Assembly (NCBI GenBank): GCA_900318345.1
Contig: ONKD01000012.1
Coordinates: forward strand, 104,168-168,167
Length of the DNA stretch: 64,000 nucleotides
Direction of reading: 5' to 3'
From: an uncultured Prevotellaceae bacterium
GTDB taxonomy: Bacteria; Bacteroidota; Bacteroidia; Bacteroidales; Muribaculaceae
Part shown: positions 23,651 through 33,275 of the stretch, piece by piece
Layout: each line of letters opens with the position of its first letter
How positions within the stretch are numbered: the first letter of the stretch is position 1
The notes under the pieces: generated by a model
Database searches by the model: none
Told to the model about the DNA's origin: nothing
What the model saw: the letters and a program-made list of their open reading frames with translations, nothing else
Translations under genes and position numbers: made by a program

Positions 23651-24949
23651 TCACAGGAATTGGGACATGTAGAGAGGCAGATAAAGAACGTCATTCTGGC
23701 TTTCAATATTATAGGGGCTGAATACAATAGAGCGTTCTATTTTTTCGGGGTTTGCCTTAATTGCTGCATCTAGTGAGGCATGACGCTTGTAATCGCTTCC
23801 AGACTTAACTTCAATAATGGTGATTTGATTATTCTCCTCGATGATAAAGTCAAGCTCTTGCCGACTTTTCTTGTCATAGTAATGGAGTGGTATGCCCTTA
23901 CTTGAGAGCGAACATGCGATGTAATTCTCGGTCAGGGCCCCCTCGTTGACACCAATATTTCCATTGAGCACATCAAATTGAATGCCTTTGAGCAAGAGGC
24001 TGCTCAGTAGTCCTGTGTCCACCATATATAGTTTAAATAGTCTTCGATTCTCGGTGGCGGTGAATGGCAGGGCAAAATCACTGACGTTGAACGAGTAATA
24101 AGCTATACCTGCATCTATGAGCCATTGGGTCGGATCTTCATATTTACGCATCGATGCCCCCTTTTCAAGAGAGGCAAGGATGAATCTTTTGTCCTGTTTG
24201 CCAAGTTGAGAAGGTATAGCGTCAAAGATTCTCTTGACCAGCACTTGGTCTTTTCCAGCATAGTTGGTGATGTCGGCACGATAAGTAGTGAGTATCGAGC
24301 GCTGCACATTCAGAACGTTACCAAAGTCTGCATTGTCAATAAAAGTTTGTACCACATTGGGCATGCCGCCCACAACTAAGTGTTGACGGTAGAACTTGCT
24401 TATTTGATCATGAATGAATGCGGGTACAGGTTGCTCCTTTTGGTAACAATGCCGCAAGGTGTCAATAACATCGGTTCCCACACCATTTGCCCATAAAAAT
24501 TCCTCAAAATCGAGAGGATACATCTTCAATTCCTGTTCATAGCCCACGGGATAGGATGTGACAGGCTTATAGTTAATGCCTAACAGAGAACCAGACTCAA
24601 TGAAATCATATCGGTGCTCTTCTACCAGGAATTTAATTGCAGTGCGGGCATTAGGGCATTCTTGGATTTCATCGAAGAAAACCAGTGTCTCGCCTTCGAC
24701 AAATGGGCCAAATCCCATTGCCGAGAGGTTCGTGACAATGGTCTTAGTATCAAGATTGCCGTCAAATGCCTGCCTTGCACGGGGAAATTTGACAAAATTA
24801 ATTTCTACAAAATGCGAATAATGTGCTTTGGCAAACATGCGCACAGAGGTTGTCTTGCCCACTTGACGTGAGCCAGTAAGCAATAGAGCTTTATTACAAC
24901 CTGATTGATACCACTTTGTGATATCATCGCTTACCTTTCGTTTGAGCAT
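23651..24949 (-). CDS. AAA_14/DUF4143 ATPase A
   Basis: A 432-residue protein from ATG 24949. Walker A GSRQVGKTT at residues 26-34, Walker B LVFFDEIQ (Asp93-Glu94), then a sensor-like ESGSLLG. The C-terminal DUF4143 part has a nuclease-like motif, QELDFIIEENNQ followed by IIEVKSGS (D, E-x-K), as in PD-(D/E)XK folds. These P-loop proteins are very common and often multicopy in Bacteroidales; their role is unknown. The leader between promoter and start is made of 33-bp tandem repeats. The open frame continues through them (LRSKRLQKVVI repeats), but no ATG opens it. Confidence 0.88.
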   Translation of the reverse strand: MLKRKVSDDITKWYQSGCNKALLLTGSRQVGKTTSVRMFAKAHYSHFVEINFVKFPRARQAFDGNLDTKTIVTNLSAMGFGPFVEGETLVFFDEIQECPNARTAIKFLVEEHRYDFIESGSLLGINYKPVTSYPVGYEQELKMYPLDFEEFLWANGVGTDVIDTLRHCYQKEQPVPAFIHDQISKFYRQHLVVGGMPNVVQTFIDNADFGNVLNVQRSILTTYRADITNYAGKDQVLVKRIFDAIPSQLGKQDKRFILASLEKGASMRKYEDPTQWLIDAGIAYYSFNVSDFALPFTATENRRLFKLYMVDTGLLSSLLLKGIQFDVLNGNIGVNEGALTENYIACSLSSKGIPLHYYDKKSRQELDFIIEENNQITIIEVKSGSDYKRHASLDAAIKANPEKIERSIVFSPYNIESQNDVLYLPLYMSQFL

Positions 24950-24952
24950 ATC

Positions 24953-25067
24953 TACAACTTTTTGCAGCCTTTTTGGCCTTGGTTTTACAACTTTTTGCAA
25001 CCTTTTTGAGCGCAAAATTACAACTTTTTGCAACCTTTTTGAGCGCAAAATTACAACTTTTTGCAAC
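24953..25067. repeat. 33-bp tandem repeat array in the leader of ATPase A
   Basis: Units begin TACAACTTTTTGCA at 24953, 24986, 25019 and 25052 (exact 33-bp steps; last copy partial). The two middle copies are identical; the first is diverged in its second half. Read on the gene's strand each unit ends CAAAAAGTTGTAATTTTGCG and has internal CAAAAAGGTTG/CAAAAAGTTG sub-repeats. The array fills the space between the -7 box and the ATG. Confidence 0.9.
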
Positions 25068-25072
25068 AATGG

Positions 25073-25080
25073 CAAATATA
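25073..25080 (-). promoter_or_regulatory. -7 box of ATPase A
   Basis: TATATTTG on the minus strand, directly upstream of the repeat array. ATPase B has the same box in the same position. The -33 region is weak. Confidence 0.55.
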
Positions 25081-25181
25081 CACCACTATTTCTTTGGTAA
25101 AGATTGGATTATTGTTGTATTGTATTTAACGTGAGTTTGAAAGAAATAAAGTACCGGTAATCAATTAAATATAAATATAGA

Positions 25182-25316
25182 GGCTGTGTCATAATTGCAA
25201 TGTCGCTACATATATCGGCCTACGGCCGAGAAATTTAAACAAATTATTTAATAAATTAAATAAAAATTTTAATTATGCGGTTAATATTCCAGCAAATGAA
25301 TTATGACACACCCCCC
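25182..25316. repeat. MITE-like intergenic element, copy 4 (~135 bp)
   Basis: Left end AGGCTGTGTCATAATTGC, hairpin CGGCCTACGGCCG, AT-rich centre, right end GAATTATGACACACCCCCC. Same family as 1851. Confidence 0.8.
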
Positions 25317-25346
25317 AACCGTTTGGCATTATCCAAATGCTGCCCT

Positions 25347-25373
25347 TGAGACGCAAAATTTTGCGCGTCTACA
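25347..25373. repeat. Palindromic repeat family B, copy 3
   Basis: TGAGACGCAAAATTTTGCG followed by CGTCTACA. It follows the MITE-like element through a linker resembling the one at 6210 (GGCATTATC). Confidence 0.7.
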
Positions 25374-25404
25374 TGACTCTGATGGCAAACTCGCTGAAAA
25401 CTGA

Positions 25405-26595
25405 TTACCACCTGACTGCGTGTGATAGCGTGATTTGTTTGGTATCGCCGGCGGTACCAACTACGTCGAGTGCAATTTGGGGCAGTTCATCGATGCAGTA
25501 TTCTTCCTCCCAGGTGAAGTCCTCCACGGGCCTGTTGTTGATAGCGATGATGCGGTCGTTTAATTGAAGCCCTGCACGGGCGGCATCTCCATCACGCGGG
25601 AGCGATGAAACAATCCAACCCTTGCCAATGTCGGTGCGGTTCCTGAAAGCGAAGTCATAGTTGGGCTTGGCAGGCTGATCTTTCTTGAAACGCTTGAGGT
25701 AGAGGACACTGTGTGGCATGTCGATGACCAAATTGAACTTGGATAACAACTTATTGCCGATGATGCCGATATAATCCTTCTGGCCAAAGGCGCCTGTCCC
25801 GTCGGGCAAATAGGAAATCACCTCGTTGCTGGTGGTGTCAGAGCCGATGACGATGCGCTGTGACTGCATCTCGATAATTGACTCTTGTGACTTGTCTCCA
25901 ATGCCGAACTGAGTTATATCTATCATATGTCTCTTGCCTGGCAGCGATTCGAGTCCGAATTGCTTGACCGTGCTTGCGGTGAAGTCGACCGAAGCGCCTG
26001 ATCCCGTGTCCACGAGGAACCATCCCTGAATGCTCTTGCCGCCAACGATGACTTCGGCTTGAATCTGGATGCGATGGTCATGGCAACGGATAGGTAATTG
26101 ATCATAGCCCTCAACCGCTGGTTTCCCATCCTTGTAATACTTCAAGTAATTGTGTTCAAAGTTGATTTCCAACGGATGCAGCTCAATGTCCTTGACACCC
26201 CAAATGCCATCGACATGGCAATCAATCACATCCCTCAACTTGAAAATAGGCACAATCTGGTAAGTGCTGTTTAACGACCCGATGCTCAGGACTGTAGGGT
26301 CCATGATGATTGGCACCGTGGTACGGCCCGCGGTGCCCCCTGTCCTGGCACGGCCAATATTTTGCGGGTGCCAATCGGATGCTGAAAGATAGACGCTGTC
26401 GATGCCGAATAGGTTAGAGCCTCCCGTATCAAAGATGATCATGGCTTGGTACTCATTGTTGATACAAGCAGGGAGATGAAGATGCGAACGATATAGGAAC
26501 GGGATGCTGTCGTTGCCCCAAGCCACTGCTGCCCATGACCAAAGAACGGCGAGGGCGAGAATGAGCAATCGATGGTTATTTCTCAAGGAAAACAT
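25405..26595 (-). CDS. Two-lobed retropepsin-like aspartic protease with PDZ domain, secreted
   Basis: Start at 26595 gives MFSLRNNHRLLILALAVLWSW, a signal peptide; ATG 26646 would add 17 residues. Two D-T-G active-site motifs are present in one chain: IIFDTGGSN near residue 55 and FLVDTGSGAS near residue 200, so a pseudodimeric aspartic protease can form. Residues ~320-385 are a PDZ domain (GWIVSSLPRDGDAARAGLQ, LNDRIIAINNRPV). It should act in the periplasm or at the outer membrane. It is the last gene of an apparent operon with a BlaI-type repressor and a BlaR1/TonB-type peptidase, suggesting a regulated proteolytic pathway. The natural substrate is unknown. Confidence 0.82.
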   Translation of the reverse strand: MFSLRNNHRLLILALAVLWSWAAVAWGNDSIPFLYRSHLHLPACINNEYQAMIIFDTGGSNLFGIDSVYLSASDWHPQNIGRARTGGTAGRTTVPIIMDPTVLSIGSLNSTYQIVPIFKLRDVIDCHVDGIWGVKDIELHPLEINFEHNYLKYYKDGKPAVEGYDQLPIRCHDHRIQIQAEVIVGGKSIQGWFLVDTGSGASVDFTASTVKQFGLESLPGKRHMIDITQFGIGDKSQESIIEMQSQRIVIGSDTTSNEVISYLPDGTGAFGQKDYIGIIGNKLLSKFNLVIDMPHSVLYLKRFKKDQPAKPNYDFAFRNRTDIGKGWIVSSLPRDGDAARAGLQLNDRIIAINNRPVEDFTWEEEYCIDELPQIALDVVGTAGDTKQITLSHAVRW

Positions 26596-26713
26596 CTGCG
26601 ATAATAGATTAATTGTCAAAGATTTGAACTTATTATTTTTAAACATGAGTCCGATGAAATCTAATCATCGAACTCACGCTACTTTAATAACTAAGGGATT
26701 TTTACTTTGTCGA

Positions 26714-28114
26714 TTATTCGCCGCTTGGTTTTCTGTCACCCTGCATTTTGAAGGCAATGGGCAGGGTGTACCACACTGCTACGGGTTCGCCGTTCTGGCG
26801 GCCAGGTTCAAACTTGGGCATTGATTTGATCACGCGGACGGCCTCGGCATCAACTTCTTCACTGACCGAGCGAACAACCTCGACATCTCCCACCTGACCG
26901 GTCTCGTCAATAATAAACTGAACAACGACACGGCCTTGAACATTATTTTGTACGGCTATGGGCGGATATTGGACATTCTGCTGCAGGTATCTCATCAGTC
27001 CCTCCATACCACCAGGGAACTCGGGCATCTGCTCGACAGATTCATAGACCTTCTTGGATTGGGGGACAGGTTCTTCGGTTACCTGCTCCTCAGTATTCGC
27101 TTCGTCAATTGCTGGAGCCTCTTCAGGTTCAGCCTCTACCTCGACAGCTTCGGGGGTGGCGTCGGCTTCGATATTGGCTGGTTCAAGCGACTGCATTACT
27201 GACTGGACAGCGTGGTCTTGCTGAACACTCGTTGTCACAACTGCTGCTACACTCTTGGGGTTGGCAAAGGCCAACAGCGCCAATGCTATCACGGGCACCA
27301 CAGCCAGCGCACGCAACGTCTTCCATCGGCTGCTTTTGTTCATAGTCATCATACGGATTCGTTTTTTTAGAGATTGATAATTGAAGTTATTTGCCATCGA
27401 GAATAGCTGGTCCCCGACGGACTTTCGTATGAGCAGCAACTGATACTGCTTCACGTCGACGCCTTGATTGATAACAGTCTCATCGGCCTCATACTCATGT
27501 ACTTGCCTCAACTCTCGGCACAACAGCCAGGCGGCAGGGTTCCACCACTGGAACAGTGTCACCAGTCCCATAAACAACACATCCCATGAGTGCCGCAGGC
27601 TGATGTGCGCCTGCTCGTGGGTGAGAATCTCACGCGGGTTGTCGCGGTAGTCCCGCTCATTGATGACGATGTGCTTGAAGTAACTGAATGGTGTCTGGTC
27701 ACCAGGGACAATATGCAGCGTGGCGCCGCTAGGCAGCGACTCGCGCCGGCCCTGTTTCAACAGGCGGTGCAGGCTCCACTGGCTATGCAGGAGCCACACG
27801 AGCGCCATGGCTATTCCAATGATGTAGATCACCGTGGCCACACTGGTCATGGTCCAGGGGTGGGCTGCATGCTGGGCAGCGACGGCGCCACCGGGCGTGA
27901 TGAGCAATTCCTCAAGCACTACCATCTGACTGGCTACGGGTGTGGAAGCATTCATCGATATCCTTATCCACGGCAGCACCAGGGCAATAGCCATGACGGC
28001 GAGCAGGGCCACGCGGTTAAACCGGTGGAACGTCTCGCGGCTGAGCAACAGCTTCCACAGCAGGTAAAACGCGATAAGGCACAGACCCACTTTGATTTGA
28101 TAAATGAGTAACAT
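26714..28114 (-). CDS. BlaR1-type M56 peptidase with C-terminal TonB domain
   Basis: A 466-residue inner-membrane protein. N-terminal hydrophobic helices (1-55, ~90-110), a cytoplasmic M56 zinc peptidase part with the HExxH motif in EILTHEQAHISLRHSWD and a downstream Glu in HEYEADE, another helix near 265-285, a Pro/Glu-rich periplasmic linker (~300-365), and a TonB C-terminal domain (VQGRVVVQFIIDETGQVGDV region, ~385-460). BlaR1 proteins sense cell-wall damage or beta-lactams and cleave their partner BlaI. The TonB ending replaces the usual penicillin-binding sensor. It sits 14 bases after the BlaI-type gene. Confidence 0.9.
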   Translation of the reverse strand: MLLIYQIKVGLCLIAFYLLWKLLLSRETFHRFNRVALLAVMAIALVLPWIRISMNASTPVASQMVVLEELLITPGGAVAAQHAAHPWTMTSVATVIYIIGIAMALVWLLHSQWSLHRLLKQGRRESLPSGATLHIVPGDQTPFSYFKHIVINERDYRDNPREILTHEQAHISLRHSWDVLFMGLVTLFQWWNPAAWLLCRELRQVHEYEADETVINQGVDVKQYQLLLIRKSVGDQLFSMANNFNYQSLKKRIRMMTMNKSSRWKTLRALAVVPVIALALLAFANPKSVAAVVTTSVQQDHAVQSVMQSLEPANIEADATPEAVEVEAEPEEAPAIDEANTEEQVTEEPVPQSKKVYESVEQMPEFPGGMEGLMRYLQQNVQYPPIAVQNNVQGRVVVQFIIDETGQVGDVEVVRSVSEEVDAEAVRVIKSMPKFEPGRQNGEPVAVWYTLPIAFKMQGDRKPSGE

Positions 28115-28128
28115 AGTGAGAGAGGGGG

Positions 28129-28497
28129 TTACTGTTGGTCGTTCTCTTCTACTTCACGGATGAGTTCTTTCAGGTCCTCGATGCTGACCTTCTCGCTCTT
28201 GACAAGCGCCGAGACAGCACTCAGGTAGGATTTGCCGAAGAACTTGTTGACCACGTTGGTCAACGAGCCGCCGCGGTAGTCCTCGCGGCTGATGCGGGCA
28301 AAATACTGGAAGCAGCGGGCGGTGATGGCCTTGTGACCCAGGAAACCCTTCTCCTCCAATATCTTCATCAATGTAGCCAAGGTATTCACATGGGGGCGGG
28401 GCTCATCGTAGCAAGCCTGCAACTCGCGCACAAGCATGGGGCCATGGTCCCACATGCGCTCCATGATTTCCTCTTCTTTTTGGGTTAATTGTTTCAT
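28129..28497 (-). CDS. BlaI/MecI/CopY-type transcriptional repressor
   Basis: A 122-residue winged-helix protein beginning MKQLTQKEEEIMERMWDHGP, the BlaI signature; the recognition-helix region HVNTLATLMKILEEKGFLGHK follows and the C-terminal ~45 residues form the dimerization helices. Family members bind palindromes in their own promoter and are inactivated when the partner peptidase cuts them. The next gene is such a peptidase. Two palindromes centred on AACTAAA/TTTAGTT lie 36-86 bases upstream of its start and are the likely operators. Confidence 0.93.
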   Translation of the reverse strand: MKQLTQKEEEIMERMWDHGPMLVRELQACYDEPRPHVNTLATLMKILEEKGFLGHKAITARCFQYFARISREDYRGGSLTNVVNKFFGKSYLSAVSALVKSEKVSIEDLKELIREVEENDQQ

Positions 28498-28532
28498 AAT
28501 TCAAGCCTTTTGTTGATTTTACACCGCAAATT

Positions 28533-28583
28533 AACTAAATCTTTTAGTTATAAAACAAATTATTTTAGTTAATAAAACTAAAA
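28533..28583. promoter_or_regulatory. Likely BlaI operators (two palindromes)
   Basis: AACTAAATCTTTTAGTT at 28533-28549 is a perfect 7-bp inverted repeat around three bases; TTTTAGTT...AACTAAAA at 28563-28583 is a second with the same half-site. A further TTAGTT lies at about 28588. They precede the repressor gene, as expected for autoregulation. Confidence 0.7.
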
Positions 28584-28635
28584 CCATTAGTTATATAGAA
28601 AATAGAATGAGTGTATTCGTGCAAAAGAAACACAT

Positions 28636-29778
28636 TTACTGGTCAAAGTTGTGTTCCCAAAGTAATTTGAAGAAATCCTTGACGTATAAACACTCGATGT
28701 TTCCTATATTGCGAGAGAAAATGTCATTGGAGACAATGATGCGCCGGCTGTTGGGGTGTTCCTCGCCAAAGGCCTTCAGTCCCTTGAGGTGCTTTGGGAG
28801 TACCTCGTCAGCCGATTTGATCTCTATAGCGACTCTTGCATCGCCGATGATGACATCTACCTCGATTCCGGTGTAAGAGCGCCAATAAGAAAGTGCTTCG
28901 TTTTGATGGGTATAACGATTGTAGGCGATGAGTTCCTGAATCACCAGATGTTCAAAGGCATGACCATATTCGGGTGTGCCGCGCTTGAGCTCACTCCTGT
29001 TCAGCAAGTGGTTAACAACCCCTACATCAAAGAAATAAAACTTAGGGGCATGTACTAATCGACGTTGCACGACCTTGCCATAGGCTGGGATGCGGTAGCC
29101 GATTAGTGTATCCTCTAAGATATCGAAATAGGCACTGACGGTGGTGGCGCTCACTCCACATTCCTGAGCGATATTCTTGTTATTGATGATTTCGCCGTTT
29201 CTGATGGCAGCGACTTCCAGAAAGCGTTGGAACGCGTTAAGGTTCCTCACCAGGGATTCTTCCTTGATTTCCTCTTTCAGATAAACATTCACATAAGCCG
29301 AAAGGCGTCGTTTAGGGGATTTTGCGAGATAATGAGACGGTAGCATACCATAGTTCAAGGCATGATCAAGGTCAAAATCATGTACTTCAGCGCTGACCAA
29401 AGGAAAGAAGTATACAGGGAAAGCCCTGCCACCTAATGTGTTGGTGCTTTTACGCTTAAGTTTTCGGGCGCTTGAACCGCACAGAATAAACCTAAGGTTT
29501 TTCTCTGAGATGAGCCGATGCACCTCGTTAAGCAGAATGGGCACCTCGGGGATTTCGTCAATAATGACTAAAGTTCCTGAGGGCTTGTCTTTTAGGGTTT
29601 CATATAGCAGGGCAGGCCTCCGTTCAAAACGATTTCTGACCTCTGTGTTCAAGAGGTCAAAGTAGATTTCGTTAGGGAATTGGTGCCTTAGGGTAGTGCT
29701 TTTTCCAGTCTGGCGTGCACCAAAGAGGAAGATACTATCCTCTATCTCATTGGCTAACTGGCAGATGCGATTAATCAT
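28636..29778 (-). CDS. AAA_14/DUF4143 ATPase B
   Basis: A 380-residue protein. Walker A FGARQTGKST at ~19-28, Walker B LVIIDEIPE (Asp74-Glu75), sensor ILCGSSARKLKRK, a winged-helix-like middle (NKNIAQECGVSATTVSAYF), and the C-terminal DUF4143 part with GIEVDVIIGDARVAIEIK (D...E-x-K, nuclease-like). The fold matches ATPases A and C but sequence identity is low, so these are not recent copies. It begins directly after a leader holding two 32-bp repeats. The product is predicted to be cytoplasmic; its function is unknown. Confidence 0.88.
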   Translation of the reverse strand: MINRICQLANEIEDSIFLFGARQTGKSTTLRHQFPNEIYFDLLNTEVRNRFERRPALLYETLKDKPSGTLVIIDEIPEVPILLNEVHRLISEKNLRFILCGSSARKLKRKSTNTLGGRAFPVYFFPLVSAEVHDFDLDHALNYGMLPSHYLAKSPKRRLSAYVNVYLKEEIKEESLVRNLNAFQRFLEVAAIRNGEIINNKNIAQECGVSATTVSAYFDILEDTLIGYRIPAYGKVVQRRLVHAPKFYFFDVGVVNHLLNRSELKRGTPEYGHAFEHLVIQELIAYNRYTHQNEALSYWRSYTGIEVDVIIGDARVAIEIKSADEVLPKHLKGLKAFGEEHPNSRRIIVSNDIFSRNIGNIECLYVKDFFKLLWEHNFDQ

Positions 29779-29791
29779 AGGCTTGAAAAAT

Positions 29792-29855
29792 AAAAGTTTA
29801 ACTTGCGATTTTCAATCAAATTCAAAAGTACAACTTGTGATTTTCAATGAGAATC
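29792..29855. repeat. 32-bp tandem repeat (two units) in the leader of ATPase B
   Basis: Units start AAAAGT at 29792 and 29824; 26 of 32 positions agree (AACTTG and GATTTTCAAT are constant). On the gene's strand the units read TTGAAAATCACAAGTTGTAC and TTGAAAATCGCAAGTTAAAC before CTTTT. They fill most of the leader between the -7 box and the ATG. Confidence 0.85.
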
Positions 29856-29860
29856 GAGTG

Positions 29861-29868
29861 CAAATATA
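29861..29868 (-). promoter_or_regulatory. -7 box of ATPase B
   Basis: TATATTTG on the minus strand, five bases upstream of the repeats, the same box and placement as for ATPase A. Confidence 0.55.
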
Positions 29869-29993
29869 GTAAGATTTTGTCAAAAACAAGTGTTTTTCAG
29901 CAAAAAAGCAGCAGAGCAGAGAATTGGCATGGGATTTGCAGTTGAATCATGAAATTGAATGAAATATGGTTAATAAAAAGAAAGGAGTGAACG

Positions 29994-30215
29994 ATGTCTG
30001 TTTTTAGGGTTTTATTATCGGTTCTTTTCCCGCCGCTGGCTGTGCTGGACAAGGGTTGCGGGTCGGTCCTGATTGTGACATTGCTCACCTGTGCCGGGTG
30101 GATTCCGGGCGTGATAGGTGCGCTGGTGATCCTGAACAAGGATCCTGAAGTGCCCGTTTACCGAGGGCCGTCCTATCCGACTTACCCCACCAGTAACTAT
30201 CGTGAAATGCGCTAG
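29994..30215 (+). CDS. YqaE/Pmp3-family small membrane protein
   Basis: A 73-residue protein with two hydrophobic helices: FRVLLSVLFPPLAVLDKGCG and VLIVTLLTCAGWIPGVIGALV. The FPPLAVxxxxG and GWIPGxIHA-like motifs define the Pmp3/YqaE family, whose members are induced by stress and influence membrane potential. A short hydrophilic C-terminus rich in Pro and Tyr (YRGPSYPTYPTSNY) follows. It stands alone upstream of the superoxide dismutase operon; no clear promoter was picked out. Confidence 0.88.
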   Translation: MSVFRVLLSVLFPPLAVLDKGCGSVLIVTLLTCAGWIPGVIGALVILNKDPEVPVYRGPSYPTYPTSNYREMR

Positions 30216-30348
30216 GGGTGTGGCGTGCAGTGGTAATCGCACGCTGTGGCGCATGACCGCTGAGTGATAATGAACATTTACCCCATGGTTATCCCCTGCT
30301 TCTTGCCGGTGCGTCCGGACGAGGCGGGGGATTATTGTTGTGTAATTG

Positions 30349-30380
30349 TTTGGAGGAAACGGGATTTTGATTTATATTTG
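30349..30380 (+). promoter_or_regulatory. Promoter of the superoxide dismutase operon
   Basis: TTTG (30349-30352), 20 bases, TATATTTG (30373-30380), 30 bases before the ATG. Confidence 0.75.
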
Positions 30381-30410
30381 CCGAAACTAACCATTTAACA
30401 CTAGCGAATT

Positions 30411-31019
30411 ATGAAACAAACGATGCCTGTAGATGGAAAATTTGAGTTGATGGCGTTGCCCTATGCACCCGAAGCGTTGGAGCCCGTCATCAGTGCAGCG
30501 ACGCTGGGCTTTCACCACGGTAAGCACCTGCTCGCCTATGTCAACAACCTGAACGCGGCCCTGCCTGGCAGCGGGCTGGAGGGGCTACCTTTGGAAGAAG
30601 TGGTGCTGAAGGCCCAGGGTGGCCTGCTCAACAATGCCGGCCAAATCCTGAACCACAACCTGTACTTCGGTCAGTTTACTGCTCCCAAGGCCGACAACGC
30701 GCCCACGGGGCGGTTGGCCCGCGCGATCGACGAGGCGTTCGGCTCGTTTGATGCCTTTAAGGAGGCATTTGTCAAGGCAGGCGTGACGTTGTTCGGCTCG
30801 GGATGGGCATGGCTTAGCGCCGATGCCGACGGCAAACTGGTGATTACCCAGGAACCCAATGCTGCCAACCCCGTGCAGCGCGGCCTGCGTCCACTGTTGA
30901 CGATGGACGTGTGGGAGCACGCTTACTATCTGGACTACCAGAACCGTCGTCCCGACCATCTCGCCGCCTTGTGGCAAATCATCGATTGGGACGTGGTGGC
31001 TGGTCGCTACGAAGACTGA
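30411..31019 (+). CDS. sodB: Superoxide dismutase (Fe/Mn)
   Basis: A 202-residue Fe/Mn SOD. Metal ligands are visible as His35 (LGFHHGKHL), His82 (ILNHNLYF), Asp166 and His170 (MDVWEHAYYLDY). Also present are the core GSGWAWL and the FGSFDAFKEAF helix. It converts superoxide to hydrogen peroxide and oxygen; whether Fe, Mn or either is used cannot be told with certainty. The usual N-terminal residues (ALPYAPEALEPVIS) start near residue 15, so the first ~10 residues are a short extension; the ATG at 30453 would remove them. The next gene begins seven bases on. Confidence 0.95.
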   Translation: MKQTMPVDGKFELMALPYAPEALEPVISAATLGFHHGKHLLAYVNNLNAALPGSGLEGLPLEEVVLKAQGGLLNNAGQILNHNLYFGQFTAPKADNAPTGRLARAIDEAFGSFDAFKEAFVKAGVTLFGSGWAWLSADADGKLVITQEPNAANPVQRGLRPLLTMDVWEHAYYLDYQNRRPDHLAALWQIIDWDVVAGRYED

Positions 31020-31026
31020 ACAGACG

Positions 31027-32004
31027 ATGAAACGGACGTTGTTGATGCTCCTGGCGGTGATGTGCATGTCAGGAAGCATTATTGCTGGCGACAAGGTGAA
31101 CGAGCGCTGGCAGCGGGCCGTGCTGGCGGCGATTGACTCGTTTCCCGAGCATGACGGCTATTATACGGGTAGCCGGCCCAATGCGTTGTTCGCCAAGACG
31201 ACATGGCGCGGCTTGCATGATGCTTACCAGATGACGGCGAGCGATGACCGCCCACGGTTTGACCCGTGGCAGGCGCAGCCGTCGTTCTGCTCCAGCGCGA
31301 CCTATTCGGTGCTCATCAAGGCATTGCTCATCTGGGACACACGGCACAAGATTAAGCACGAAGCCTGGGTGAACATGAAGCCCCGCGTGGGCATAGCCGA
31401 TGAATTCAATCCCGAGGGCCTCGGGCAGGATGACGGAGTGGGTTTCTGGGGGCGAGCCAATGCCAATGGGCCCGGCCTGGGCGTGCTGGTACACGAGTTG
31501 AAAGCAGGCTACAGTTTTACAGCCTATCGCGGTGCCAAGAGCGAGCGCAACAAGGAAGCGCCCGACGAGCGCTACCTGACCGATGCCGAGTGGTGTGCCC
31601 TCGAGGTGTGGGACAGGGCAGTGCCGGGCGACCTGATGAAAATCTTCTGGAACCGCAACGAGAGCCGTGGCAGTGACAGCGGTGCCATCATCGGCTGTGA
31701 CGATGACCGCAATGCCGACCAGGAGGCGGGCCATAGCGTCATCTTCATGGGTTGCAAGGGCGACACGGTGACCTATTGGAGTTCCAATGGCCCAGGCGAG
31801 CACCCCGAACTGATGGGCTACAGCATGGGGCGTTGCCACAAGACCGCCATCCAGCGCGTGGTGTTCACGCGCATCACACGCCCCGAACGGTTCAATAACG
31901 CAAAAAAAATGGCGCCGACCGATGTCAACGCCTATTTGAGTGACTTGAATGGCAGGCGCCACAGCTCTACGGCTGAGATGTTGCGCCAGCTGGGCATCAA
32001 GTGA
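31027..32004 (+). CDS. Secreted protein with papain/NlpC-like Cys-His residues, function unknown
   Basis: A 325-residue protein with a signal peptide (MKRTLLMLLAVMCMSGSIIA). No named family was recognised. A Cys within QPSFCSSATYSVLIK at the start of a helix and a His in EAGHSVIFMG about 160 residues later resemble the order of catalytic Cys and His in CHAP/NlpC-P60-like amidases, with a W-x-x-N-P/S-like strand (YWSSNGPGEH) behind. The role could be peptidoglycan amidase or peptidase in the periplasm; this is inference. It is co-transcribed with the superoxide dismutase gene (seven-base gap). Confidence 0.65.
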   Translation: MKRTLLMLLAVMCMSGSIIAGDKVNERWQRAVLAAIDSFPEHDGYYTGSRPNALFAKTTWRGLHDAYQMTASDDRPRFDPWQAQPSFCSSATYSVLIKALLIWDTRHKIKHEAWVNMKPRVGIADEFNPEGLGQDDGVGFWGRANANGPGLGVLVHELKAGYSFTAYRGAKSERNKEAPDERYLTDAEWCALEVWDRAVPGDLMKIFWNRNESRGSDSGAIIGCDDDRNADQEAGHSVIFMGCKGDTVTYWSSNGPGEHPELMGYSMGRCHKTAIQRVVFTRITRPERFNNAKKMAPTDVNAYLSDLNGRRHSSTAEMLRQLGIK

Positions 32005-32020
32005 TGCGATTCACTTATGC

Positions 32021-32116
32021 TAATCCAAAAAAGTCGATTCTTTTTAGGAACGTAATCCAAAAAAGTTATAACTTTTCGGGATTATAATCCAAAAAAAGTT
32101 GCAAAATTCATATTTA
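32021..32116. repeat. 32-bp tandem repeat array upstream of ATPase C
   Basis: TAATCCAAAAAAG starts at 32021, 32053 and 32085, exact 32-bp steps. The second unit contains the perfect palindrome AAAAGTTATAACTTTT. The third unit contains the -33 element TTGC of the ATPase promoter. Confidence 0.9.
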
Positions 32117-32129
32117 ACACTTACCTTTG
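32099..32129 (+). promoter_or_regulatory. Promoter of ATPase C
   Basis: TTGC (32099-32102), 19 bases, TACCTTTG (32122-32129); the ATG is 18 bases further. The -33 element lies inside the third repeat. Confidence 0.65.
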
Positions 32130-32147
32130 TGTCAAAAAAGTGTAGTG

Positions 32148-33275
32148 ATGTATAACAGAGAGTTACAATCGGTCATTAAAGACAAATGTTTTCGCCATAA
32201 AGCCATCCTGATATTAGGTGCGCGTCAGGTAGGCAAAACGACTTTGCTCAAACAGTTCATGAAAGAGCAAATCGATGAAGTCATTTATCTTAATTGTGAC
32301 GAGCCGTTGACGGTTTCAATGCTTGCCAATCGTAACCTCAGCCAATTACAGATGCTGATTGGCCGTGCTAAAATCGTTGTCATTGATGAAGCTCAAAAGG
32401 TTGATAACATAGGGTTGACGCTCAAGATGATGGTTGACAATTTCCCTGATGTTCAAGTGATTGCCACTGGCTCCTCGGCTTTTGAGTTGCGCAATAGACT
32501 TAACGAGCCATTAACAGGGCGCAAATATGAGTATCAGTTATACCCTATTTCAACTAAAGAATTATTCAAGACAGCAGGTTATGTTGAGGTCAATCGTCAG
32601 TTGGAATCAAGGCTGATCTATGGATCTTACCCCGATATAATGACACATGGATCAGAAGCGCATGAATTACTGAATTCACTTACAGATAGCTATTTATACA
32701 AAGACATTCTTACATCAGATAACTTGCGCAAGCCTGAATTACTAAACAAATTGGTGAGGGCTTTGGCTTTTCAGGTTGGTTCTGAGGTTTCTTATAACGA
32801 GTTGGCGCAAACAATAGGAAGCGACTCAAAAACCGTTGAGCGATACATTGAACTTCTGGAAAAGAGTTTCATTATCTTTCGCCTTCATGGTTTGAGCCAC
32901 AACCTGCGCAATGAGTTGAAAAAAGCAAAGAAAATCTACTTCTATGATAATGGTGTGCGAAATGCTGTGATACAGCAGTTTGCTCCGCTGGATATGCGAA
33001 ATGATGTGGGCGCTTTATGGGAAAACTTCTTTATTGCCGAGCGCATCAAGTTTAACCACTATCGTCAGCACTACTGCAACATCTATTTTTGGCGTACCAA
33101 ATCACAACAGGAAATAGATTATATCGAGGAAAATAATGGCACATTTGACGTTTTTGAGATGAAATGGAATCCCAAAAACGCCAATGTCTCTATTCCTGCT
33201 AGTTTCCTGAAAGCCTACTCAGTAACAAACACTACTGTCGTCACGCCCGAGAACTATTTGGATTATTTGCTGTAA
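32148..33275 (+). CDS. AAA_14/DUF4143 ATPase C
   Basis: A 375-residue protein starting MYNRELQSVIKDKCF (a TTG 21 bases upstream overlaps the -7 box and is excluded). Walker A LGARQVGKTT at 23-32, Walker B IVVIDEAQK (Asp80-Glu81), sensor VIATGSSAFELRNRL, a winged-helix region (NELAQTIGSDSKTVERYIEL), and DUF4143 with QQEIDYIEENNGTFDVFEMK (D...E-x-K). The VIATGSSAF and LTGRKYEYQL motifs are characteristic of the AAA_14 group. It is on the opposite strand to ATPases A and B. Function unknown. Confidence 0.9.
   Translation: MYNRELQSVIKDKCFRHKAILILGARQVGKTTLLKQFMKEQIDEVIYLNCDEPLTVSMLANRNLSQLQMLIGRAKIVVIDEAQKVDNIGLTLKMMVDNFPDVQVIATGSSAFELRNRLNEPLTGRKYEYQLYPISTKELFKTAGYVEVNRQLESRLIYGSYPDIMTHGSEAHELLNSLTDSYLYKDILTSDNLRKPELLNKLVRALAFQVGSEVSYNELAQTIGSDSKTVERYIELLEKSFIIFRLHGLSHNLRNELKKAKKIYFYDNGVRNAVIQQFAPLDMRNDVGALWENFFIAERIKFNHYRQHYCNIYFWRTKSQQEIDYIEENNGTFDVFEMKWNPKNANVSIPASFLKAYSVTNTTVVTPENYLDYLL

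Follow-up and report, generated by a model that had tools for sequence, protein, structure and literature searches.

The present work concerns a 64,000-nucleotide stretch of DNA from an uncultured Prevotellaceae bacterium (contig ONKD01000012.1, positions 104,168 to 168,167; hereafter the window), in which three genes encoding AAA_14/DUF4143 ATPases are each adjoined at their 5' end by a short tandem array. We consider it probable that every ATPase recognises the array at its own gene and regulates the transcription of that gene, most likely as an autorepressor. Indeed, among relatives of these genes the words of the array units change together with residues in the likely DNA-binding parts of the protein, so that each protein most likely binds its array and controls its own gene.

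Three ATPase genes and their arrays

All three window proteins exceed the curated cut-offs of AAA_14 (PF13173) and DUF4143 (PF13635), and their Pfam matches comprise only AAA-type families, DUF4143 and weak helix-turn-helix hits. Models of PDC-S01, a single-gene phage-defence candidate of PADLOC, match the three of them (gene 3, 546 bits; gene 1, 524; gene 2, 184) and also one protein of clade A, L099 (203 bits). The features are given below, with clade letters from the protein tree described in the next section. The candidate -7 elements are named after TAnnTTTG, the -7 element of Bacteroidota.

23651..24949, minus strand: ATPase gene 1, AAA_14 + DUF4143, 432 aa, clade B, PDC-S01 (PDLC04792)
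24953..25067, minus strand: array 1, GTTGCAAAAAGTTGTA present four times at a spacing of 33 bp, with 3 bp left to the start codon of gene 1
25075..25082, minus strand: candidate -7 element TATATTTG, directly upstream of array 1
25013..25020 and 25046..25053, minus strand: alternative candidate -7 elements TAATTTTG, within units of array 1
28636..29778, minus strand: ATPase gene 2, AAA_14 + DUF4143, 380 aa, clade E, PDC-S01 (PDLC04790)
29792..29848, minus strand: array 2, one 25-bp copy at 29792-29816 and a second at 29824-29848, offset by 32 bp
29861..29868, minus strand: candidate -7 element TATATTTG of gene 2
32021..32116, plus strand: array 3, three units starting with TAATCC at 32021, 32053 and 32085, in 32-bp steps
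32122..32129, plus strand: candidate -7 element TACCTTTG for gene 3, between array 3 and this gene
32148..33275, plus strand: ATPase gene 3, AAA_14 + DUF4143, 375 aa, clade C, PDC-S01 (PDLC04789)

The copies of array 1 (24953-24968, 24986-25001, 25019-25034 and 25052-25067) follow each other at exactly 33 bp, as in the Tandem Repeats Finder (TRF) row 24953-25067, and the gene-proximal copy carries one mismatch. Array 2 lies 13 bp before gene 2, between the -7-like element and the start codon, and is absent from the TRF list at a minimum score of 30. Array 3 corresponds to the TRF row 32021-32096 and contains the palindrome AAAAGTTATAACTTTT in its middle unit.

When the 220 bp upstream of each gene were compared with themselves, the tandem self-match scores were 59.5 for array 1, 17.5 for array 2 and 19.0 for array 3. 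None of 400 dinucleotide shuffles per upstream region equalled the observed score, the best shuffle for gene 2 reaching 17 against 17.5. The initial annotation had placed arrays at 24953, 29792 and 32021 next to AAA_14/DUF4143 genes and nowhere else in the window. The coordinates, the shuffles and the Pfam matches confirm the first statement; as for the second, no other gene among the 47 window genes listed by an ATG-based rule, scored where at least 220 bp lay upstream, had a value of 10 or more at periods 30-35. The core that it saw shared by the three units is present as letters, yet the genes belong to clades B, E and C, and part of this core resembles the TAnnTTTG element.

The presence and the period of the array follow the ATPase clade

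To be called an array, an upstream region of 220 bp had to reach a self-match score of at least 13. A first set comprised 95 distinct ATPase genes from 98 loci, with 215 other genes of the same loci as controls. These 95 genes were retained out of 103 frames, after removal of three with less than 200 bp upstream, one duplicate and four without a Walker A motif or shorter than 330 aa. The loci were taken in order from score-sorted lists, 60 per round, leaving out rows at contig edges and a row containing a stop, and weak DUF4143 genes are under-represented in this sampling.

Arrays were found upstream of 64 of the 95 ATPase genes as compared with 10 of the 215 controls (7/133 for controls with a gap of at least 150 bp), so that the comparison of periodicity proposed by the initial annotation gives a large excess. 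The periods of the 64 arrays were 23 (27 arrays), 46 (4), 32 (12) and 33 (16), with single cases at 30, 34, 40, 41 and 59, whereas those of the control arrays were scattered, a single one having period 34 and the values 23, 32 and 33 not occurring. The regions upstream of the ATPase genes have a lower G+C content (0.367, versus 0.426 in controls with a gap of at least 150 bp), but AT-richness does not explain fixed periods.

The 95 proteins were placed on a maximum-likelihood tree, where clade A (support 100/99) had a period of 23 or 46 in each of its 31 members; the arrays of clades B, C and E were mostly at 32-33, and clade D had almost none. For the clade A hidden Markov model, clade A was taken as the 31 rows whose array has a period of 23 or 46; together they make up one clade of the tree. 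A larger table of 239 genes was then obtained, which omits 19 duplicates, eight genes with a short upstream region, one with a run of N and eight lacking Walker A or short. In this table, clade A carried arrays in 68/70 genes of Bacteroidota and in 34/44 of other phyla (102/114), all at 23 or 46. For clade B the counts were 19/26 in Bacteroidota (periods 30-34) and 21/39 in other phyla (20 at 32-33, one at 21), for clade C 7/11 and 0/1, and for clade D 2/20 and 3/22, respectively. The remaining clades were small: E 2/2, F 1/2 and two single-row clades 1/1 each.

Further genes behaved in the same manner. Out of 98 fresh clade A genes, 27 that were at least 90% identical to discovery genes and six that were so to each other were removed. 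Among the 65 left, 60 had an array at 23/46, one at 45 and one at 24, and three had no array. The other clades of this fresh set, counted without a filter for repeats of earlier genes, gave 4/4 for C (L306 being the same gene as L002), 4/33 for D and 0/7 for F. From the fresh set as a whole, two genes with N, two short ones and one without Walker A were left out. Additional clade B genes, non-identical to earlier ones without any identity filter (10 duplicates and three short ones removed), had an array in 54/70 cases, all at 31-33. Co-variation of the unit with the ATPase clade, which the initial annotation proposed as a check, thus holds for the period and, as shown below, for single residues. 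Its idea of a spacing near three helical turns is not general, the period being clade-specific (23 or 32-33 bp) and clades D and F being mostly arrayless.

Clade D genes instead often have a long palindrome near the promoter or leader, with a score of at least 10 in 43/75 genes versus 6/215 controls; L013, L018, L022 and L039 are among these loci.

Arrays are found in several phyla and on viral contigs

The spread across phyla was measured on the 80 best loci that the clade A alignment gave among species genomes, a non-random set for which arrays were no selection criterion. The upstream region was too short in four of the 80, which left 76 usable; L106, with a run of N, was counted as a miss, among the Bacteroidota. 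Phylum labels were assigned by hand and the records are mostly metagenome bins. A period of 23/46 was observed in 36/39 genes of Bacteroidota, 16/26 of Bacillota, 7/7 of Spirochaetota, 2/2 of Pseudomonadota, 1/1 of Actinomycetota and 1/1 unassigned. The array-positive isolates include Traorella massiliensis, Gardnerella vaginalis, Treponema vincentii and Bacteroides caecigallinarum. Neglectibacter timonensis is an array-negative isolate; the 23-bp array is absent from the named isolate L140.

Clade A genes occur on seven viral contigs, two of them apparently the same; six reach a score of at least 13 at period 23 and the seventh 12 at period 46. No viral relative of window protein 1 was confirmed, and a search of plasmid sequences for array 1 gave zero matches. 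In three clade A loci of Bacillota (L133, L158 and L150) the units contain ACTCGG, and in L133 a -10-like TATAAT lies inside the first two of the three units, a layout unlike that of the other arrays.

Units searched in two genomes have no site beyond their own arrays

The unit of array 1 has four hits in its own genome at up to two mismatches, all four within array 1. Likewise, one clade A unit gave eight hits in genome G057 (3.4 Mb in three contigs) at up to three mismatches, all eight within its own array. A regulon of other genes was therefore dropped as the main reading, these two searched units having zero sites beyond their own arrays. Same-genome paralogues of clade A differ: none of the 48 listed pairs has identical unit positions 1, 2 and 6-12, in a comparison made only within genomes. 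The number of units differs in 6/18 pairs of near-identical proteins. A same-strand gene starts within 60 bp downstream at 9/72 clade A loci, so that most of them look like single-gene units.

Such genes are common. At least 57 of the 59 genomes searched in the family of the window genome, its own included, have a DUF4143 match, and the window genome has nine DUF4143 genes. As an observation aside, the genomes behind L125, L170 and L131 have at least 32, 28 and 21 DUF4143 matches, respectively (G068, G092 and G072), and dozens of private arrays may coexist in them.

Two predicted DNA-contacting sites of the protein co-vary with the unit

For the clade A unit the consensus is CGCCAAATTACCGAATAAAATTC, in which CAA and AA are strong blocks. 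Between neighbouring matrix hits, 229 of 308 steps are exactly 23 bp, and the 183 registered clade A arrays have two to nine units within the 220 bp read. In the clade B unit the strongest blocks are AAAA and TGT; a register was obtained in 122/135 genes, with steps of 33 (154), 32 (84), 31 (15) and 34 (8), only steps of 31-34 bp being allowed. As these registers come from a scoring matrix, slippage is possible, L399 being one such case.

In the structural model of L099 (predicted local distance difference test score 91), we read helices 213-225, 233-243 and 250-262 as a putative winged helix; residue 251 comes second in the last of these, the recognition helix. Residue 343 lies in a loop between strands 335-341 and 347-354, adjoining D349 and with E363 and K365. 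These three residues, which lie on strands of the model, are invariant in 22 and 54 aligned clade A proteins, as are D367, E380 and K382 in 24 clade B proteins. The conserved D...E-x-K on a matching core of the model points to a PD-(D/E)XK nuclease-like domain, and these ATPases are assigned to that superfamily. A sequence search of solved structures returned only the Walker region of Rix7, with E values of 0.3 or worse. PDC-S01 itself is described as an ATPase with a PD-(D/E)XK domain in the available text of PMC12988326.

For the discovery of co-varying pairs, each unit position was compared with each protein column in 106 clade A genes by mutual information, with a correction for column averages. 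The top pairs were residue 343 with DNA positions 2 and 1, followed by residue 251 with DNA positions 12, 11 and 10. Candidate pairs with residues 343 and 251, plus 233/234 with DNA 7-9, were fixed before the fresh genes were obtained. The 65 fresh clade A genes gave 58 arrays, in which 12 x 251 came 1st among 9637 pairs, 2 x 343 3rd, 11 x 251 5th, 1 x 343 19th and 10 x 251 48th. Nearest relatives from the discovery and fresh sets provided 81 contrasts, and 12 x 251, 10 x 251, 2 x 343 and 11 x 251 headed the 9683 tests in this order; a plain permutation of pairs equalled the best contrast value in 1/1000, and non-array stretches gave weaker minima (4.5e-6 and 2.3e-5, versus 1.6e-7). The four fixed pairs had a joint p of 0.00065 in a stratified test on fresh genes only, and when training used only genes less than 60% identical, residue 251 was the best of 421 columns for DNA position 12.

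The correspondence can be read in letters. At unit position 2, Lys343 goes with C in 83/83 genes, Ser343 with A in 26/32 and Ala343 with A in 7/7. Asp251 goes with CCG in 42/60 and Glu251 with CGG in 18/35, and Pro251 with A at position 12 in 13/13. The recognition design of clade B appears similar, although less sharp: at DNA position 21, Arg265 goes with G in 38/45 genes and Lys265 with A in 31/46, and residues 361 and 363, just before the nuclease-like Asp367, co-vary with DNA position 11. The contrast ranks of the 265, 361 and 363 pairs are 6, 9 and 1 of 407. Read from sequence, residue 265 would lie in the recognition helix and residue 361 at the place of clade A residue 343.

Arrays are in register with the promoter

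TAnnTTTG stands downstream of the array in 118 of the 143 clade A arrays from Bacteroidota and the fresh set; it is found only upstream or inside in two and not at all in 23. In the 112 arrays with a single motif, the distance between array and motif falls into bins of 29-33 bp (30 arrays), 42-44 (21), 51-56 (36), 65-67 (11), 75-77 (9), 87-89 (2) and 15-22 (3). The corresponding vector length R is 0.855 at 11.3 bp (n = 112), a value reached by 0/5000 of a jitter null. In 50 arrays of clade B, R amounts to 0.71 for a step of 11 bp, as against 0.64 for 10.5 bp and 0.39 for 11.5 bp, and 21 of these arrays have the core of their last unit on the downstream side of the single motif. In other phyla, a sigma70-like promoter was found in 26/40 arrays, 11 of the 26 being at 43 bp from the -10 element, and several Treponema arrays overlie, by eye, the -35/-10 spacer. 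Such a register is expected of a row of proteins meeting RNA polymerase on DNA.

The best phasing step (11.0-11.5 bp) slightly exceeds the 10.5 bp of B-DNA and corresponds to one half of the 23-bp and one third of the 33-bp period; the array complex may underwind the DNA.

A proposed model of self-recognition and the points that weigh against it

Together, these data suggest a one-gene module in which an AAA+ ATPase, a winged helix and a PD-(D/E)XK nuclease-like domain would be associated with a private operator array at the module's own promoter. The ATPase would form a row on the array, with one protomer per unit of 23 bp or 32-33 bp, and each protomer would read its unit twice, by the start of the recognition helix and by a loop next to the nuclease-like active site. 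This row of protomers would stand in register with RNA polymerase and control the gene. Autorepression would keep the ATPase scarce until a signal, perhaps an infection sensed through the ATPase, releases the row. From the residue-base co-variation we strongly infer the physical binding of the ATPase to its own array, and the ATPase itself, which the initial annotation had named as a possible binder, is the best-supported reading. That the effect is repression rather than activation we infer more weakly. It is favoured because arrays 1 and 2 are downstream of a -7-like element, as are the clade B cores in 21/50 arrays, and because Treponema arrays lie over the spacer. Oligomerisation, release by a signal and a role against phages are putative. 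In Thermus thermophilus, an AAA_14/DUF4143 gene shows a 6.6-fold increase with a plasmid in the presence of Argonaute, according to the available text of PMC4406477, which by analogy hints that such genes can be induced.

Several observations weigh against this proposal. Outside Bacteroidota, the score is below 13 in 10/44 clade A and 18/39 clade B genes, and most genes of clades D and F have no array. The phasing nulls ignore shared descent, the clade B phasing was computed with five periods tried and without a null, and the 11.3-bp step has a second possible reading, one half of a 23-bp unit instead of one helical turn. As for co-variation, the pairs 234 x DNA 8-9 and 233 x DNA 7 failed to replicate in the 58 fresh arrays, and many pairs with DNA position 3 were high in the fresh set, probably because of a few odd rows. 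A permutation stratified by identity equals the best contrast value (12 x 251) in 25/1000 and that of 2 x 343 in 136/1000; the single stratified p values of the fresh set alone are 0.011 (12 x 251), 0.12 (11 x 251), 0.39 (10 x 251) and 0.041 (2 x 343). Residue 280 predicts DNA position 2 as well as residue 343 does (124 versus 123 of 164), which makes 343 second to 280. Besides, the code is not strict, Arg343 going with C in 24/31 and with T in 6/31. In clade B the pair 388 x DNA 4, at the top by mutual information, was rejected since it fails the contrasts (rank 104/407). Finally, the sequence is compatible with either direction of control.

A more elaborate form of the model, possible but doubtful, is that of a nuclease leashed by itself: the nuclease-like domain would help to read the array, and the array would both repress the gene and park the enzyme in an inactive state. 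A disturbance by a phage, in ATP state, DNA structure or transcription, would free the row, raise synthesis and release the nuclease. Paralogues, with their separate addresses, would then amount to many independent leashes in a single genome.

Other explanations of the arrays

The ATPase could bind its array as an activator, in a positive feedback like that of MalT, with ATP-driven oligomers on direct repeats recruiting RNA polymerase. The promoter register would suit such a role. So would the Bacillota arrays, where the commonest distance from unit start to -10 is 43 bp (9 of 20 with a sigma70-like promoter, of 25 arrays) and the usual position by eye is just before the -35, as for class II activators; Foldseek matches to MalT (8bob) and to NLR proteins point the same way. 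We nevertheless find activation unlikely: arrays 1 and 2 of the window, the 21 clade B cores and the Treponema arrays stand where a repressor would be expected, downstream of the motif or over the spacer.

If another host protein bound the arrays and controlled the ATPases, the match between unit and clade would reflect shared descent only. The binder is deduced here from sequence, and shared descent does inflate the residue-base correlations, as the stratified permutation indicates. However, unit and ATPase clade go together in several phyla, the two units searched occur in their genomes only within their own arrays, same-genome paralogues differ, and the units co-vary with recognition-helix residues even in contrasts of near relatives. 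With so many different private units, a single host regulator could hardly match all of them, and we hold this explanation to be very unlikely in comparison with self-recognition by the ATPase.

Invariant D349, E363 and K365, a patchy distribution and relatives on plasmids and viral contigs would fit an array that is a recombination or cutting site, the gene being a selfish or homing element. This is highly improbable, considering that the array is in promoter register and that the two searched units have no site beyond their own arrays.

The initial annotation had also considered a repeated RNA element. Direct repeats ahead of a gene recall a leader or the repeat RNA of a type III toxin-antitoxin system, and arrays 1 and 2 may indeed be transcribed. 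In clade A, however, the motif lies downstream of the array in 118/143 cases, a register of about 11 bp has no obvious meaning for an RNA, and the Pfam matches of the window proteins include no toxin family of the ToxN kind. The RNA reading, to which we leave only a marginal probability, was set aside on the position of the motif and on the register. Chance, or low complexity of promoters that are indeed more AT-rich upstream of the ATPase genes, has a negligible probability and was dropped on the control genes, with their few arrays and scattered periods, and on the window shuffles, fixed periods being found again in the fresh sets.

Relation to known systems

In the available text of PMC12988326 and PMC13356809, PDC-S01 is a very common candidate for which no mechanism is given. 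It is the most frequent individual locus of the cattle rumen set of PMC13356809, and validation is pending for most candidates of this type (PMC12988326). The promoter arrays and self-recognition described here are mentioned in neither text, as far as available. A literature search on this ATPase family found no paper describing the arrays, in a coverage from which subscription journals and preprints were mostly absent.

The best Foldseek matches of the L099 model are the archaeal AAA+ ATPases SSO1545 (2fna) and PABY2304 (2qen), over 367 and 364 alignment columns including gaps, but with a TM-score of only 0.40-0.42 of the query and root-mean-square deviations of 8.4 and 9.1; NLR proteins, MalT, Card1 and Orc1/Cdc6 come next. 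If the proposed mechanism is true, the ATPases would resemble regulators of the MalT type, in the STAND (signal transduction ATPases with numerous domains) class, in being ATP-dependent oligomers on repeated promoter sites, the operator boxes (fold match 8bob). MalT, which is not known to carry a nuclease domain, acts on other genes, whereas the ATPase array is at the promoter of its own gene. The Orc1/Cdc6 initiators (2v1u, 2qby) likewise combine AAA+ and a winged helix reading DNA but act on origin DNA, the ATPase array being at its own gene's promoter. Type III toxin-antitoxin systems also have tandem repeats before a single gene; unlike them, the window proteins have no Pfam match of the ToxN kind and the clade A repeats are mostly upstream of the promoter motif. 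Autoregulation through operator repeats is already known. A large AAA+ nuclease-like family of which many members have private, co-varying arrays, in several phyla, is, to our knowledge, a new form of it.

The arrays are a concrete handle on the ligand, with a readable DNA address per protein and a residue-to-base code that can be tested by one mutation. If the proposal is true, an orphan family would gain a known ligand, a reporter assay and a route to the releasing signal, and same-genome paralogues with separate addresses would be a natural set of orthogonal DNA-binding ATPases.

Neighbouring elements in the window

About 115 bp upstream of array 1 lies an element resembling a miniature inverted-repeat transposable element (25182-25316), which starts with GGCTGTGTCATAATTGCAATGTCGC and has inverted ends. 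Its sequence has 72 matching pieces in the window genome and is also found once upstream of an ATPase gene in L001. A blaR/blaI-like pair (26714-28497), so named by reading the sequence alone, follows ATPase gene 2 on the strand of that gene. A 43-bp repeat with a score of 13 lies upstream of the blaI-like gene (28129-28497) and perhaps represents operators of its own.

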